Shown here: one piece after another, positions 17,526 to 63,509 of the stretch
Position numbering within the stretch: the first letter of the stretch is position 1
How the letters are laid out: each line of letters starts with the position of its first letter
Source: Epinephelus fuscoguttatus
Taxonomy: Eukaryota; Chordata; Actinopteri; Perciformes; Serranidae
DNA: 64,000 nucleotides
NCBI RefSeq assembly: GCF_011397635.1
Contig: NC_064770.1
Span: 19,437,707-19,501,706, forward strand
Reading direction: 5' to 3'
Position numbers and translations under genes: made by a program
Notes under the pieces: generated by a model
What the model was told of the DNA's origin: nothing
Databases searched by the model: none
What the model saw: only the letters and a program-made list of their open reading frames with translations

Positions 17526-54370
<36,845 letters not shown>

Positions 54371-55308
54371 TCTGCCAGACTACAACCACAACGAGTGTCT
54401 CTGTTGCAGACGCTAACGTCAACGTTTGCTGTTATAAGTTATGGAGCAGTTAGCTAGCTAATGTTAGCATTCATGCCTAGCTAAAGGATGGAGGTTAAAA
54501 TATCTTACGAAACGATGGAATTATTAAACAGGTGCGACACAGACTTAGCGGAGGTATTAACGTGTAAAATAACTGCGCGAAAACTGAAATAAATATCACT
54601 ATATAAAGCCGAGGCATTAGTCTTTACAGTTTCTATGCAGTGATGCAGTTTGCAGTTGCTGTTGTGTCGCGCCCTGCCCCAGTACGGTAAGCGAGAAGGT
54701 ACAGACTTATCTCAGGTCGCGATAGGCCAGTCATAAAGGCGCTTCTGTCTCTGAGAGGAAGTAAAATTTGTTTCATGTTTATTAACATTTACCAGTGGTG
54801 GAAAGTAACTATGTGCCTAACTATTTTTATTTTATGCTACTTTATACATCTACTCCAGGGGGAAATGATTATTGTAAATATTGTATTTAACTGCATTTAT
54901 TTGACAGCTATAAATACTAGTTAGTTTTCAGATCAAGGTGTTAAAAAACATGTTAATACATCAAGAATGGGCCAGTAATGTAATATTACAATGCTAAGAG
55001 GGCCTGTTCTGCTTTGCTTTTTGATAAGGCTACATTTTTCTGATAATAGCTGTGTGCTTTTACTTCAGTGAAAATGAATGCAGGACTTTTACTTGTAGTT
55101 AAGTATTTATATAGTGTGACATCAAACTATTTTTAGTATAGTACAGTGGTAATTAATTTTGGTCCTTATTAACATCCTTATTATCCTTATTATTTTTTAA
55201 AAGGAATGCATATCATGAAGAATAAATAGCAACAAAGCATTAAATTAAAAGGAAAAACAAAAGGAAAACGTTAAAAAAAATTGACCAAAAAGTAAATACC
55301 AAAAAATA

Positions 55309-55479: not shown

Positions 55480-56135
55480 GACCGTTTTAATTCCCTGTCC
55501 CAACCATTCCACAAGTTAACCCCTTTGACAGATACATTCCTTGTTTGCCTTTACTAACAGCGCTGTGAATGGTTCAGTGATGCAGCCTATATTGTCAGTA
55601 TGTCAGACAAATTCATATGATCATGATTTTCTACCTGGAAAAAAAACCTTAAAACATAAAACTTCTTAAGTCTATGGGTGCATCAAAACCTGGGCTATAC
55701 AAGCTCTGTGTATGTTCAATTTAATTGCAAATAGAAGAGTATAAAATGAAAATGTACATACAACATAATAATGCACATATAAGCAAAGTAGCAACACAAA
55801 TTAATGTAAGACAGCAGGTTTATACATGTATGTTTATTTTACTAAGTTGCATGTGAGTGCTGGGATGCAAGGTGCACAACAGCCTGGGAGAAGAAGCTAG
55901 TGTTCATTCTTGTGGCAGGAGGTCAAACAATCAGTAAGAGGGGTGGAGAGTTCTTCATGATGATGGAGGTCTCCAGGCTACAAATGCAGCATTGTGGGAC
56001 AATCATTTCACTTCATCCTAGGCTTTACTGTTGGCTAAGCAGCGGGTATTAAGTATTGCATGAATTAATTAAAACACAACAACATTTTGTCAGTGTATGT
56101 AGTGTTTCAGTCTGCTGGACATCAATAGTTTGATG
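55480..56135. repeat. Duplicated 3' flank of fn3k (copy 1)
   Basis: Blocks such as AGTGCTGGGATGCAAGGTGC, ACAACAGCCTGGGAGAAG, GGTCAAACAATCAGTAAGAG, TTTCACTTCATCCTAGGCTT and GTGTTTCAGTCTGCTGGACA recur in the same order at 58645-59372 downstream of fn3krp. A minus-strand AATAAA at 55833-55838 is conserved in both copies (the other is at 59069-59074) and may be the polyadenylation signal. Confidence 0.85.
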
Positions 56136-56159: not shown

Positions 56160-57796
56160 TTATTTCAGCAGTTTCTTCATAACACTTATTGAAGGGCGCC
56201 TGTATTCATTGCCAAAGTGGTTCCAGTGATTTAGATAGTTAAAGAGTTGGTAAAGCTGGTTTCTCTGTGCAAAGCCTGGTGCTTTAGGAATCTTTTCATG
56301 GTAAGCAGAGTAAAAAGCACTGTTGAAACCACCAAACATTCCAGCAATACCCAGCTCAAATTCTGAATGACCATAGAAAGAGGATGGGTCAAAGATGACT
56401 GGGCCGTCTGCACACTGTGCCACGTTGCCTCCCCATAAGTCTCCATGCAGGAGAGCAGGAACAACCTCTATATCTTTGAAGAACAGAGGCATTTTCAGCT
56501 GTAAATGACAGAAACACTATGTGAGTCAGATAACTGAAACAATAATAAGGATGCATGAAAAGTGAATTTGAGGGAAGGTGCACCTGTAGCTTGGCCCATA
56601 ACTCTCTGGCCTCTCTGTCTCCATAGGATTCCTCCACCATGTTGAGCTGGTGCTGCAGTCTCTGCTGTGAGAAGAATGTCACCCAGTCATCCTGCCACTC
56701 GTTGTTCTGAGGAGGTAAGGGGGGGTGGGGGGGGGGGATTCAAGCTTAGAGACTACAATACAGTATTATACAGATGCAATATTCATATACTTACCTGTGG
56801 AAAAAATCCATAGCATGTAGCTACATTGAAGCCAAACTTCTCAACAACAGCCACATCTGACTGTCCAGCTCCTTTTCCTGTACAGTCATATTGTAGTTAT
56901 AGTCCATCTTAATCAATCAGCAGTAAACTCTCATCTAAATGTCTAGAGAGTGAAAGATGTTTTTTGCACATTTGTCTGTATTTGCATGCGAGGTTAAAGT
57001 GAATTACCCACTGTCTGCTGCTCTTTATTTAATTTTTCCAGCTGTCTCTTGTTGAGAAGATGCATGTCTGCCAGCTGCTCTCCGAGGTGCTTTGAGTACC
57101 TGCACGTTGGATATGGAATTAAAGTATTTTATAAAAACAGAAGAACAACAACAACAACAAACTTTTGACTGTTATTTGCCCTCCATTCGACTGGTACAGT
57201 ATGAAAAACACACTGTATGAGAGAGCTCTTACTTGCTCAGACCTCTCATGTCCAGATGTTCCATCACAAGTACACATCCTCCTGTGTCAAGCTCAATCAC
57301 CTTCACAGGCTTGGGGACTTTAACAGTTTCTGTCTTTAAAATGGCTTCCAAACTGGCCATCTCCCCATCAAACATCAATTTGGCCTGAATAAAACAAAAT
57401 AAATCATGTGAAAACGAAATGTAAAAAAGTAAAAAGTAAGGATTTGGGCTGGTAGGCAAAGCAACAGCACAGATCTACACTCGTTGGCATGTACTTACTA
57501 TGAAATTAAATCCGTCTCCATTTCGCAACGTGTGCACAAAGTTCAGTAGCAATCAAAACTACTGTGCTTTCAGAGGGTGCAGCTTGCAGCCATATAAAAA
57601 GCCACTCACTGTCACTATATTGAATTTAAATATTAAAAAAACAATGATTAAATACCTCGCTCTTGTAATTTATCTTCACAAACACCCTCCCATGGTCAGT
57701 ATCATAACTCTGACCCTCGCAAATGTATCCACCTCCTGCATGACCACATGACTCCAGCATGGATGTCCCCAACTCTTTCTTTAACTTCGATTCCAT
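56160..57796 (-). CDS. fn3k: Fructosamine-3-kinase, six exons
   Basis: It phosphorylates C3 of fructosamines on glycated proteins, which destabilises the adduct and repairs the lysine. Exons: 57656-57796, 57233-57384, 57008-57099, 56795-56877, 56584-56706, 56160-56498; all GT-AG, total 309 codons plus stop, the usual family length. Visible are VFVKIN with the ATP-binding lysine (K41), the catalytic HGDLWGGNV with D217, and the [11 protein letters not shown] metal-binding segment. I start at [10 protein letters not shown]; the in-frame extension seven codons upstream begins with TTG. I call it fn3k, not fn3krp, because exon 4 (CYGFFPQ) and the C-terminus ([15 protein letters not shown]) resemble FN3K, and because it is the copy next to tbcd, as in human. 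Residue 24 is Tyr, not the family's P-loop Cys; a Cys is at 26. Exons 5 and 6 are nearly identical to the neighbouring copy. Confidence 0.92.
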
Positions 57797-59952
57797 TGTT
57801 ATTTCCCCAAAAAACAATTCTGGTGAAACTGTAGTGGTGCTAATATCAACTGCGCGGTGTCCTAGGCTGCACCCAAACCTCCACCATCTGGACCTGCGGA
57901 CCTACCCTCGCAGTACTGTGACGTGTTCACCGTCATCACGTAAAATCTGCAGCGCTCCAGACTGTTTTACTCGTTGCCATGGAAACGTTCGAGCGACGAT
58001 TACAGTTATTTACATGGTGGTCGCTGCCGTTATATCATGTCTGCGCATCTGTCCCTGCAGATAATGTGAGTGAAATACATTTCTGTGCAACATATAGGCT
58101 GCAGACATCCAAATACAGAGACGTACTGCTATGACTAAATAAATAGGGTGGGCCTTATGGTTACATCAGAAGATATGCTTTTGATGTTTTTCGGCCATTT
58201 TCTATATATTTGGCATGACACTGCACAAACTATATCTGCAATAATACAATGCATTTTGATTACCATCTATAGCCTATAGATCAGGCTGCAGAAACTATTT
58301 TGCTTTTTTTTCTTGGTCGGTTTTTTTTAATAACGTCACGTCCGTATTGCAATGAATTGTGGGTTATTAAATCAGTGAAGTCGGTTGTAGTCTGCACCTA
58401 TGGTCTGCACCCCAAGCAGACTTTCTGGAACTTTACAGAAGGTCAGCCTTTGGCACCATGAGGACTGGATGACGTGTAGATTTGGACAGCCCGCAGCACA
58501 CCCACACTTCCCAGGACGGCACCCTTGTTTCTAACAGGACTGTTATTTTTAGGATAATATAGTGGTAGTTTATTGTAATTTATTTATTATTTCTGCACTA
58601 CATTGTTTTATTTTTATTTTTTTAATTTACAGAGTGGTCAACAGTTTTATTTCCCTGTCACAACCATTCCAAAAGTTAACCCATTTGATGTATACATAAC
58701 TATTCCTTAAGTCTGTCCTAACCCTTGTTTCTTCAAATTATTAACCATTTCACATAAGTAAATAGACTGAATACTTACTTCTTCCACCACGTACCAGTTG
58801 TTATTATTCATATGGTTCAGTGACGCAGCCTATAATATTATGTCAGTTAAATGCATATAAGATTGTGATTTTCTTCCTAAAAAAACATTTAAAGTATGAC
58901 AAAACGAATAACACTTCTTAAGTCTGTGGGTGCACCAAAATCAGAGAAAAACAAGTTGTGAGCATGTTTTACTGAACTGCAAATAGTAGAGTATAAAATG
59001 AAAATATACATACAACATAATAATGCACATACGAATGCAAATGCAAGACAGCCAGGTTTATATGTTTGTTTATTTTGTTAAGTTGCATATGAGTGCTGGG
59101 ATGCAAGGTGCACAACAGCCTGGGAGAAGCAGCTACTGCAGGAGGTCAAACAATCAGTAAGAGGGGTGGAGAGTTCCTCATGATGATGGAGGTCTCACAG
59201 TCGGATTCACTGCAGTGCTCATACCAGGCTACAAATGCAGCATTGCAGGACAAACATTTCACTTCATCCTAGGCTTTACTGTTGGCTAAGCAGCGGGTAT
59301 TAAAAACTGCAAGGATTCACATTTTGTCAGTGTATGTAGTGTTTCAGTCTGCTGGACATCAACAGTCAGGCTGTTATTCTGTAGAATAAAATATTGCATT
59401 CACTAGGAAAAATTAAATATTGTTTGCACAGCTGTACGATTCAGTCGGGTGCTGGTTGAATGCAGGCAATGAAAAATAATAAAACATTAAGAAAGGGTTC
59501 ACAGCATAGCACAGCAAATCCTAAGTTGGTCCAGAGCTCAGTTTTTTTGGTGTAAGGTAAGCCTTTCTTTTTCAAACAGTATTGCATGTTAAGGTTTACT
59601 TTTGGCAACCTGCAAGTCAGCATAGAAAATACTGAATTTAACAATACTTAGATAAATATACCCTTGTGCAAACATACAATTTATGATAGTTACTGAGAGA
59701 TGTGGATTCTGTTTTATCACATTTTGAAACCAGGTCAGTTTAGGTGGAGCAGGCAGGGCAGAATTACTTTGTTCTGTTAATTCTGTATTGTCTACACAAT
59801 ATGCAAGACATTACAATGTTAGAATGTTATGATTTGTCTATTTAAATATTAGCCACACTATTTTTTAAGACAAATTAGAGTCTGTCAATATATACATAAA
59901 ACTTGGTTCAAGTTTAAGACTCTGAAGCTTCCACAAGTGACTGTGAGTGCAG
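57797..59952. other. Region between fn3k and fn3krp
   Basis: The fn3k promoter should lie just above 57796 (CpG-bearing to about 58070). Above it is unremarkable AT-rich DNA, then the duplicated flank and the 560-bp segment unique to fn3krp (59373-59931). No gene is seen. Confidence 0.5.
58645..59372. repeat. Duplicated 3' flank of fn3krp (copy 2)
   Basis: This is the counterpart of 55480-56135. It has an extra 30-40 bases near 59200 (CACAGTCGGATTCACTGCAG) and is followed by about 560 bp (59373-59931) that copy 1 lacks before the gene's last exon. Confidence 0.85.
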
Positions 59953-61578
59953 TTATTTCAGTAGACTCTTCATAATGCTTACTGACGAACCCCTGTAGCC
60001 ACCGCCAAAGTGGTTCCAATGATTCAGATAGTGATAGAGCTGGTAAAGCTGGTTTCTCTGTGCAAAGCCTGGTGCTTTAGGAATCTTTTCATGGTAAGCA
60101 GAGTAAAAAGCACTGTTGAAGCCACCAAACATTCCAGCAATACCCAGCTCGTATTCTGAATGACCATAGAAAGAGGATGGGTCAAAGATGACTGGGCCGT
60201 CTGCACACTGTGCCACGTTGCCTCCCCATAAGTCTCCATGCAGGAGAGCAGGAACAACCTCTATATCTTTGAAGAACAGAGGCATTTTCAGCTGTAAATG
60301 ACAGAAACACTATGTGAGTCAGATAACTGAAACAATAATAAGGATACATGAAAAGTGAATTTGAGGGAAGGTGCACCTGTAGCTTGGCCCATAACTCTCT
60401 GGCCTCTCTGTCTCCATAGGATTCCTCCACCATGTTGAGCTGGTGCTGCAGTCTCTGCTGTGAGAAGAATGTCACCCAGTCATCCTGCCACTCGTTGTTC
60501 TGAGGAGGTGAGGGGGGAAAATGAAAGCTACAGTGATATTTCTAAGGATAACTGTAACATCTCAACAACCTTGAGGGCACATACACATTTTTACCTGTGG
60601 GAGATATCCACAGCATGTAGTTACACTGAAGCCAAACTTCTCAACAACAGCCACATCTGACTGTCCAGCTCCTTTTCCTGTGTACATTTAATAGGTTATG
60701 CAGAATATCTTTATCAATCAGCAGTAAACTCTCATCTAAATTTTGAGAGCTAACTGTTATTCAGTGTAACAATGGCAAGTCATGGCAAGGTGAATTACCC
60801 ACTGTCTGCTGCTCTTTATTTAATTTTTCCAGCTGTCTCTTGTTGTGAAGATGCATGTCTGCCAGCTGCTCTCCTAGGTGCTTCGAGTACCTGCACATTG
60901 GATATGGTATTAGAGTATTTCATTAAAAAAAAGAGCAAACTTCCTATAATGATTTCACATTGCCCTCCATGCTACTGGTACAGTATGAAAAACACACTGT
61001 ATGAGAGAGCTCTTACTTGCTCAGACCTCTCATGTCCAGATGTTCCATCACAAGTACACATCCTCTTGTGTCAAGCTCAATCACCTTCACAGGCTTAGGG
61101 ACTTTAACAGTTTCTGTCTGTAAAATGGCTTCCAAACTGGCCATCTCCCCATCAAACATCAATTTGGCCTGAATAGAAAATAAATGAATAAATAAATAAA
61201 TAAAAGGATTTGGGCTGGTAAGCAATGCAGTAACACAGATCTAACGTTACACTAGTTTGCATGTGCTTACAACGCAGTTAGATACGTCTCCATTTTGCAA
61301 CGTGTGCAAAAAGTTCAGTAGCAATCAAATACTATGTGGCTTTCAGAGGGTGAAGCTTCAGGGCATGTATAGCCTGCTATGACACAAGTAACTGTCACTA
61401 TAATGAGTTAAAATATAACACAATAATGATTACATACCTCGCTCTTGTGATTTATCTTCACAAACACTCTCCCATGGTCAGTATCATAACTCTGGCCCTC
61501 GTTGATGCATCCACCTCCTGAGTAACCAGTGGACTTCAGCATGGATGTCCCCAACTCTTTCTTTAATTTAGCTTCCAT
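59953..61578 (-). CDS. fn3krp: Fructosamine-3-kinase-related protein (ketosamine-3-kinase), six exons
   Basis: FN3KRP phosphorylates ribulosamines and psicosamines on glycated proteins. Exons: 61438-61578, 61017-61168, 60799-60890, 60595-60677, 60377-60499, 59953-60291; each has exactly the length of its fn3k counterpart, and the product is also 309 residues. It keeps the canonical P-loop GGGCINEG with Cys24, the lysine in VFVKIN, and HGDLWGGNV with D217. Exon 4 reads CCGYLPQ and the C-terminus HYLNHWNHF then GYRGSS, both as in FN3KRP. Its ATG is 346 bp from the arl16 ATG on the other strand, so the promoter is probably shared. The order fn3krp-fn3k-tbcd on one strand is the mammalian order. 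The 3' flank has about 560 bp more than that of fn3k. Confidence 0.92.
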
Positions 61579-61924
61579 GGTTATTGCCCAAAACCAATTT
61601 TAGTGGAGCTGTAGTGGTGTTACTATCAACAGCGCGGTGCAACCGCACTCACAGAAGTTGAAGGGGCGTTTTCGACGTGTTTTTGGTGTGTTTCCGTCGT
61701 CTGAGCTAACGGAACTCTGCTCCTCTGCTCTGGACGTTCGACTTGTTTTTCTTCCGGTATTTGCATGGAGTGGTAACCAATCAGAAACAAACAATTGACT
61801 GATTTCTTCTTCGTCCTATCACAGAGACGTATCGCGGTCACGTGAGCGTCGCCATGGTGTCAGATAAAGCTACATGAGCTACGTGCTAGCTCAGGCTTTG
61901 CTATGTCTGTGCTTGAAAAGCGAG
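61579..61924. promoter_or_regulatory. Probable bidirectional promoter of fn3krp and arl16
   Basis: The 346 bp between the two divergent ATGs must hold both 5' UTRs and start sites. It is locally richer in CpG than the neighbourhood (CGTGTTTTT, CGTCGTCTG, CGCGGTCACGTGAGCGTCGC) and contains a CACGTG E-box near 61840 and a CCAAT (61778-61782). I see no TATA box. Confidence 0.6.
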
Positions 61925-63509
61925 ATGAGCGGCAGTGAAATTTGTTTGCTTCTTGGAGCGACTGGTGTCGGAAAAACGTTGCTGCTGAAACGTCTACAAA
62001 ATATCCTTTATACCCGACTGAATGTTTCCAACTACAACTTGTAAAAAGTAGTATTAATTTGTTACTGTGTGTCAACGTGTTGTGTAGCTAACGTAGCTAT
62101 AGCTAGCTAGCTGACGATAGCCTAGTGTAGAGCCGTTAGTAACGTTAGTGATCTAAGTCACAATTAGCTATAGCTAGTTAATTATAAACATACAGACGGG
62201 CTACACACTATAGGAAACCCATATAAGGTGTCTCTCACATGTGTGTTTAACTGTGTTGAGATTTGGTGGTTGAAAAGGCTATAGCATATGATTTATGTTA
62301 TTTTCACACTCATGAAACCATTACGTGACCCCTCATCTCCATAAATGGGGGCATTGCCATCCTGGATGAGACCACTAATTTATTTTCCTTTAAGTTGTCA
62401 CCCGTTTGTCTATCCATTTTTCCATATTTTTATATCAGTTTGAGTGCATACTCAGTTACTAAACACTTGGTAGACATGCATCCAAGGTAAATAAGTGACA
62501 TGGTATGGAGGAAAATAAATTATAAATACATGGCATACCCTTATAAAAAGGATTACTACAAAATGCCACTTTCACAACTTATGGAATATATCATATAAGC
62601 TGTTCAAATAATATTTTGATCTGCTTTTGTGCATTTAAATTGTGATAACAGTCATAGCACTGGCTGCTAAGGATATTTTTCCTATCAGGTTTTATTTACA
62701 GCTCAGTCTGCATGGATTAGGTGAACTGGGGGGACCTCCTTCTACTCTGCCTACTGTAAGTAATATTGAAAGGTAGTTTTAATACGTTTACAGGCTCAGT
62801 TTTGATGAGACAGTAGACGTCCATGTAATGCCCTCACTCTCCTTAAACCTCCTCAGGTAGGGACCAACCTGACAGACCTGACACTGAAGAAGAAGAAGGT
62901 GACATTAAGAGAGCTGGGAGGCTGCATGGGCCCTATATGGCCGAGTTACTTCAAAGACTGCTCCTCTGTCATTGTATGTTTTTGTATACATGCTGCAACA
63001 TTTGACAGAGTTAAATGAATTGACTGCTGCAATCACTTGAATAAATGTGTCTTTCTTTGTGTTTTGTTATAGTTCATGGTGGACTCAGCCAACATTGCTC
63101 AAATATCCTCCTCCTGTGTCCAGCTGCTGTCAGTACTTTCTGCTGAGCCTCTGCAAAGTGCCTCTGTGGTTATTCTGTTCAACAAGAGGTGACTCTCACA
63201 TACACACCAATCACTATATTCGCTTGCCATACCTGCAAGATGTCAGTCAGCATGTTCAATACAAAAAATATCCGATATCATAATTTTGTCTCTTGTTGAA
63301 AGCTGTTACCATTGTGTATTTTCTTTTTTTTTTTTTTCTTCAGTGACTTGCCTTGCACTATGAGTCTCGTAGAGATGAAGTCCCTGTTCAGAATGGATGA
63401 CATCATTGCATCTGCGCCTCAGCCAATCACAACAATTGAAATCAGTGCCCGCTCTGGACAGGGACTTCAGGAGGTGCTGAGCTGGCTGGAGTCCATCATA
63501 GTCAAGTGA
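61925..63509 (+). CDS. arl16: ADP-ribosylation factor-like protein 16, five exons
   Basis: ARL16 is an atypical ARF-family GTPase, reported in ciliary protein traffic and as a RIG-I regulator. Exons: 61925-62000, 62700-62755, 62857-62973, 63073-63188, 63344-63509; 176 residues. Motifs: P-loop GATGVGKT at residues 11-18, VGTNLTD around the switch I threonine, RELGG in place of the usual D-x-G-G-Q (residues 62-66, so the Asp and the catalytic Gln are replaced), NKSD at 120-123, and EISARSG as the SAK-like motif. There is no glycine at position 2, so no N-myristoylation is expected; family members of this type are divergent. Intron 1 begins ATATCCTTT and ends AC, read here as a U12-type intron. 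The other introns are GT-AG. The start is the first ATG in frame with the P-loop. Confidence 0.93.
62001..62699 (+). other. arl16 intron 1, U12-type AT-AC intron candidate
   Basis: The intron begins with ATATCCTTT, the consensus 5' splice site of the minor spliceosome, and ends with TTTAC. A branch-like TTCCTATCA lies about 20 nt before the end. Using these borders gives exon 1 of 76 nt and exon 2 of 56 nt, in frame, and a protein join (RLQ-K-LSLHG) of about the family length. Confidence 0.8.

Follow-up and report, generated by a model that had tools for sequence, protein, structure and literature searches.

The 64,000-nucleotide stretch of the Epinephelus fuscoguttatus genome considered here (contig NC_064770.1, positions 19,437,707 to 19,501,706; hereafter the window) carries on its minus strand two tandem fructosamine-kinase genes, each made up of six exons. 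Gene A, which is FN3KRP/KT3K-like, lies at 59953..61578 (exons 61578-61438, 61168-61017, 60890-60799, 60677-60595, 60499-60377, and 60291-59953), and gene B, which is FN3K-like, at 56160..57796 (exons 57796-57656, 57384-57233, 57099-57008, 56877-56795, 56706-56584, and 56498-56160). Both are intact: each has an unbroken frame of 309 codons for a protein of 309 amino acids, GT and AG bound all 10 introns, and the two products align without gaps and match the Pfam family PF03881 (1.2e-77 for A and 6.9e-72 for B). Together with this match, the residues D217, W219, D234, and H288, the same in A and B, place both in the fructosamine-3-kinase family. The pair is 92% identical overall and 99% identical within a tract in the middle of the genes. 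We consider it highly probable (about 0.86) that A and B are tandem genes that have undergone repeated interlocus gene conversion, with islands carrying paralog-specific residues having been spared.

The tract extends without gaps over 467 bp, from the last bases of intron 4 through exon 5 and intron 5 and into exon 6 as far as codon 280 (60043..60509 in A and 56250..56716 in B, both on the minus strand). Within it, the copies differ at four positions: A 60346 in intron 5, the codon 244 positions 60152 and 60151, and 60121, a silent change in codon 254. The original prediction had put the differences at about four in roughly 427 bp; there are exactly four in A 60073-60499 and B 56280-56706, and the gap-free tract is slightly longer. 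Its account of the surroundings was equally sound. Intron 4, which it called unrelated, has 47 of 88 aligned columns identical (0.534), which falls among the values given by 30 shuffled controls (mean 0.439, maximum 0.547). In the final 120 bases of exon 6, the count of differences is 19 where about 20 had been claimed, and the paralog motifs GFFPQ/GYLPQ, HSEF/HSEY, and FNYL..EYRRPS/YHYL..GYRGSS are read directly in the B/A translations.

Silent divergence between the two genes is mosaic. Between the start of homology and the stop codon lie 1004 silent columns (5′ untranslated region, introns, and third codon positions), in which the best silent segment is A 60509-60043 at mismatch penalties of 8, 10, and 20, with 2 mismatches in 211 silent columns; it becomes 60517-60043 at a penalty of 5 and 60345-60124 when zero mismatches are allowed. 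None of 2000 silent-site permutations reached this segment. When the limits are instead chosen by eye (A 60041-60513), 3 of 215 silent sites are mismatched inside the tract and 187 of 789 outside it (Fisher 3e-18). Nei-Gojobori synonymous divergence (dS) is 0.027 for codons 157-278 compared with 0.575 for the adjoining codons 279-309; exons 1, 2, 3, and 4 give 0.30, 0.03, 0.12, and 0.05, respectively.

The permutation test is blind to local differences in constraint, and the identity of intron 5 matters for this reason. A and B agree at 84 of its 85 positions compared with 199 of 252 in intron 1 (p = 1.5e-6), and identity from intron 1 to intron 5 runs 0.79, 0.79, 0.66, 0.53, and 0.99. As intron 5 is so much more alike than intron 1, and intron 4 is at chance level, coding constraint cannot be the cause of the tract. 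A duplication of uniform age, in which no conversion took place and purifying selection on coding sequence and splicing kept the middle alike, could appeal to the content of exons 5 and 6, which encode the catalytic residues listed in PMC12486099 and most of those listed there as binding substrate. It is set aside on the identity of intron 5, introns 1-4 being 21-47% diverged, and differences are scarce at third codon positions too (1/116 inside the tract versus 16/156 outside, p = 0.0015); of all the explanations considered, we hold this one the least probable, with a very slim chance of being correct. Only marginally better are the prospects of an assembly artifact, in which the middle parts of the two copies would have been collapsed to some extent or phased wrongly. 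Against this, the assembly appears to be at chromosome scale (26 contigs totaling 1.047 Gb, with C1 of 52.8 Mb and C24 of 22.4 Mb), the tract still contains four differences, of which two share a codon, and a second tract lies apart from the main one.

The only amino acid difference in codons 155-282 is at codon 244, which is TAC (Tyr) in A (60151..60153) and TTT (Phe) in B (56358..56360). It arises from two base changes, which are two of the tract's four differences, at the site of F244 in human FN3K (HsFN3K). Residue numbers follow from the gapless alignment to HsFN3K, which likewise brings D217, W219, H288, and H291 into register. Five sites, 171, 179, 244, 260, and 284, have been reported to set fructosamine activity (PMC12486099, published as PMC13223202), and F244 is described there as a key determinant in ancestral enzymes. 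For four random differences in 467 bp, the post hoc probability that two fall in codon 244 is 0.00017, and that two fall in any one codon is 0.02; with four of the five specificity sites in a tract of ∼124 codons, the chance that one changed codon hits such a site is ∼0.03.

At sites 171, 179, 244, 260, and 284, A has Q, M, Y, Y, and H, all five being FN3KRP-type by the ancFN3KRP states of PMC12486099. B has Q, M, F, Y, and N, two of the five being FN3K-type, and so falls short of the full FN3K set, which in HsFN3K reads H, L, F, F, and N. Sites 171, 179, and 260 lie inside the tract and are FN3KRP-type in both genes, and site 284 is His in A and Asn in B. For site 179, PMC12486099 gives the human change as M179L and its own ancestral change as M187L; the human FN3K chain has L179, and Leu is taken here as FN3K-type. 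On these residues, A would be predicted to phosphorylate ribulosamines only and B to retain at least partial fructosamine activity. An AlphaFold model of B, built from a two-row alignment, had a mean predicted local distance difference test score of 34.9 and was not used. In the P-loop (61501-61509 in A and 57719-57727 in B), A has C24, and B has Y24 and C26. In human FN3K, C24 forms a redox-dependent dimer (PMC11754801, PMC11148063), and B lacks this P-loop Cys24 of the FN3K redox switch.

Likeness between A and B extends well beyond the tract. The unit of homology reaches from ∼60 bp 5′ of the start codon to ∼680 bp past the B stop codon, with identities of 82% in the 5′ 62 bp, 79% in introns 1 and 2, 66% in intron 3, and 79-94% in pieces of the 3′ flank (55481..56129 for B and 58641..59366 for A, minus strand). 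A dispersed repeat was considered as the source of this common flank and set aside, the piece at 55569-56129 being found by genome search at two places, here and at A. Several hundred bases 3′ of the A stop codon, at 59380-59930, have no counterpart in B. A second near-identical tract takes in exon 2 together with the 5′ portion of intron 2 (60974..61180 in A and 57190..57396 in B, minus strand), where 5 differences occur in 207 bp and 1 mismatch in 99 silent columns; it too was reached by 0 of 2000 permutations, and the four further silent segments listed have permutation p values of 0.41 or more. What had been proposed was an old pair homogenized only in its middle. The conversion tract stands, but its restriction to the middle does not, because alignment is still possible in introns 1-3 and the 3′ flank and a second tract lies in exon 2.

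Two histories of the pair compete to explain this background. In the first, the main rival to an older origin, a single FN3KRP-like gene was duplicated together with its 3′ flank in the fish lineage (giving a silent background of ∼20%), the middle was converted later, and B, by drift or adaptation, reached F244, N284, E295, and P299 independently. Conversion of the tract is common ground here, and what this account disputes is solely that the pair is very old; we give it an even chance. In the second, FN3K and FN3KRP were duplicated before the ray-finned and lobe-finned lineages split, and conversion, recurring everywhere except in a few islands, has come to mimic a recent duplication; we rate this just short of even. 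The evenness of the background, at ∼21% divergence in introns 1 and 2 and in the far 3′ flank, speaks for duplication within the fish lineage, as does the proportion of synonymous differences in exon 1, 0.25. In all, exon 1 differs at 17 of 141 bp. An ancient pair, for its part, requires that introns 1 and 2 and the 3′ flank were converted long after the duplication.

Diverged islands interrupt this background. One comprises exon 4 from codon 146 onward together with intron 4 (60500..60627 in A, with GYLPQ, and 56707..56827 in B, with GFFPQ; minus strand). The last 12 codons of exon 4 have five nonsynonymous changes and one synonymous change, which fits adaptation of B after a fish-lineage duplication. 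Intron 4 (60500-60594 and 56707-56794) is at chance similarity, while introns 1, 2, 3, and 5 can be aligned; it has either been replaced in one copy or is the oldest surviving divergence. A fish-lineage duplication leaves it unexplained, and an ancient pair gains from it.

The other extended island is C-terminal, comprising codons 281-309 and the stop codon (59953..60042 in A and 56160..56249 in B, minus strand), where A has H284, G295, and S299, and B has N284, E295, and P299, as in HsFN3K. Silent divergence here is well above that of the near 3′ flank (p = 0.00025). It is not firmly above the intron background (p = 0.04-0.15) and lies below saturation (binomial p = 0.003-0.09), both of which suit a fish-lineage duplication; the lack of saturation counts against an ancient pair. 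The ratio of nonsynonymous to synonymous divergence is ∼0.3 (0.173/0.575), with no sign of strong positive selection there, and this counts against the fish-lineage account. Positive selection as the sole cause at the C terminus is unlikely, since silent sites diverge too, even if they do not firmly exceed the intron background.

The residues themselves also bear on the age of the pair. Among the 26 amino acid differences between A and B, five (at 153, 244, 284, 295, and 299) have the FN3K residue in B and the FN3KRP residue in A, and none shows the reverse, as an ancient pair would predict. That B acquired F244, N284, E295, and P299 independently is made harder to accept by their occurrence in 0 of 6 non-vertebrate homologs and by the chance under the LG model, 0.012, of at least four HsFN3K matches among the nine C-terminal changes of B. 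Over all A-B differences, of which 24 of the 26 sites were usable, the corresponding chance is 0.039, and exons 1-3 show no excess of HsFN3K matches (1 observed against 1.03 expected). Of the matches of B to HsFN3K, three are, in favor of the fish-lineage account, easy Tyr-to-Phe changes (LG chance 0.46 each). In all of these comparisons, one human sequence represents FN3K and the human FN3KRP sequence (HsFN3KRP) was entered by hand, which detracts from the case for an ancient pair.

Segment phylogenies conflict between the C terminus and the rest of the gene. Six hand-picked topologies were compared for A, B, HsFN3K (from the PDB), HsFN3KRP, and AtFN3K (from the PDB), and five topologies for a larger set of 10 sequences, to which five prokaryotic homologs had been added; the sample is one fish genome with human, plant, and prokaryotic references. 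Codons 279-309, a segment of 31 residues chosen because A and B differ there, reject the three topologies that join A to B, with approximately unbiased (AU) p values of 0.0157, 0.0072, and 0.0076 and Shimodaira-Hasegawa values of 0.038-0.043 for five sequences, and AU p values of 0.027, 0.0125, and 0.0128 for 10. This rejection (AU p = 0.007-0.027 overall) counts against a fish-lineage duplication. The C-terminal trees favor an ancient pair, and quartet differences do so too, at 7+7 for B with FN3K and A with FN3KRP against 9+9 and 11+11 for the other arrangements. In the best C-terminal tree, B pairs with HsFN3K and A falls outside FN3KRP; a tree of strict orthology is only slightly worse, by 0.3-0.4 log units. 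The failure to join A specifically to FN3KRP is a point against an ancient pair.

Exons 1-4 and the tract tell the opposite story. Both reject the tested topologies that join B to HsFN3K (three topologies, AU p ≤ 0.00081, for five sequences, and p ≤ 8.2e-5 for 10), and the exons 1-4 block groups A with B, with the tested B+HsFN3K trees rejected at AU p ≤ 6.5e-5, which is what a fish-lineage duplication would give. Exon 4 alone groups A with B by distances, and exon 1 alone speaks weakly against B+FN3K (0.017 to 0.088). B groups with tetrapod FN3K in the C-terminal trees and not in those of exons 1-4 or the tract, a mixed result for its orthology. The original prediction had looked to separate segment trees for its old pair and had accepted that grouping of the two copies in every segment would tell against it; the C terminus rejects that grouping, whereas exons 1-4 show it. 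A scan of genome contigs for relatives returned one distant match, which was not used as a sequence, and no vertebrate, and a scan of viral contigs found none.

On the far side of B, also on the minus strand, is the gene for TBCD, starting near 54376, so that the order is A-B-TBCD. A PDB search with three of its internal exon peptides retrieves tubulin-specific chaperone D (7e-45); the first exon alone gives a weak match (0.061). Within this gene, at 52085-52910, is a stretch starting CTCACCGGCCACTTTATTAGGTAC, which we take to be a degraded DNA transposon of a kind common in fishes. On the plus strand, reading frames at 61868-63509 stand head-to-head with gene A and presumably belong to an ARL16-type small GTPase, a name that we assume from peptides such as LLLGATGVGKTLLLKRLQ and LGGCMGPIW.

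The human gene order is listed as FN3KRP, FN3K, TBCD (PMC10334611, PMC3892072). The order A-B-TBCD agrees with it, which counts for an ancient pair and against a duplication confined to fishes. A whole-genome protein search, which scores only its best candidates (here 11 of 11), found 12 exon matches at E ≤ 0.001, all 12 in A or B; no third FN3K-family gene was found in it, again in keeping with an ancient pair. The published record favors the fish-lineage account: the emergence of FN3K has been dated after fish speciation (PMC13223202), and two independent duplications, one in reptiles and birds and one in placental mammals, have been described with reference to Ensembl (PMC11148063). Our broader and more tentative suggestion, which we rate a shade below the ancient pair itself, is that FN3K was not a tetrapod invention. 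The pair would have stood beside TBCD in the bony-fish ancestor, recurrent conversion would have spared the specificity residues, and gene trees would have misread the outcome as separate fish, bird, and mammal duplications.

That exon 5, intron 5, and most of exon 6 form a recent gene-conversion tract is well supported as an interpretation of the sequence: near-identity is contiguous through coding and non-coding DNA, the limits are sharp, silent identity is in excess, and the segment trees conflict. This youngest tract (467 bp, reaching from exon 5 to codon 280 of exon 6) would have formed when one gene, carrying a break or a heteroduplex, was repaired from the other, and a second tract of similar youth would have arisen over exon 2 and the beginning of intron 2. 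The islands, namely the end of exon 4, the C terminus, and codon 244 on its own, may be where conversion stopped or was selected against. Selection favoring residue 244 of B, together with the C-terminal tail, could have limited or corrected conversion, and the difference at codon 244 was probably kept by selection. The most likely direction, if weakly indicated, is from A to B, replacing the middle of B, because B is FN3KRP-type at 171, 179, and 260 but FN3K-type at 244 and 284. With 2-3 silent differences in ∼160-215 silent sites, common fish substitution rates would place the tract at roughly a few million years old.

Several points weigh against this interpretation. The clustering at codon 244 was seen first and tested afterward, which is why its probabilities are post hoc, and F244Y alone did not switch or inactivate human FN3K (PMC12486099). 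At the 36 sites in codons 157-278 where HsFN3K differs from the hand-entered HsFN3KRP, B agrees with FN3K at 12 and with FN3KRP at 15. H171 and M179 both occur among the prokaryotic homologs, which makes the older states at the sites bearing on direction uncertain. The conversion mechanism itself is deduced from the pattern of bases, and the data are those of one genome assembly, so that an artifact in the tract is formally possible.

Among the closest known systems is the human FN3K/FN3KRP (KT3K) pair at 17q25.3, which, like A and B, is a tandem pair of the PF03881 family beside TBCD that aligns without gaps under the same numbering. The human proteins are, however, 64% identical (PMC12486099; 64.4% with the hand-entered FN3KRP) as opposed to 92% for A and B and 99% in the tract, and, unlike the human pair, exons 1-4 and the tract of A and B do not sort by orthology. 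The tandem lws opsin paralogs of anabantoid fishes (PMC11291592) offer a parallel in another gene family, with Ks falling to zero in coding parts, conflicting segment trees, and a proposal of one older duplication masked by conversion; several species were compared there, in contrast to the one genome and human reference available here. Songbird FN3KRP duplicates (PMC4377847) are likewise lineage-specific extra copies in this family, but they lie on chrZ with the parent on chr18, not in tandem, and conversion goes unmentioned in the part of that text available. A literature search found nothing joining FN3K or fructosamine 3-kinase with gene conversion, and a search on FN3K in teleosts yielded only papers that were off-topic by their titles and the beginnings of their abstracts.

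Gene conversion between tandem paralogs is well known, and this tract is a known type of event in a new place. What is new is that its sole amino acid difference, at codon 244, is at a reported site of FN3K/FN3KRP specificity. The locus is in effect a natural experiment, in which much of the catalytic part has become identical while codon 244 and the tail containing site 284 still differ. Gene B is a natural mosaic, with two of the five reported FN3K determinants set on an FN3KRP-like body, and its activity would therefore provide a direct test of the specificity model. Because conversion can mislead whole-gene trees, the view that FN3K originated after fishes, and more than once, warrants re-examination.

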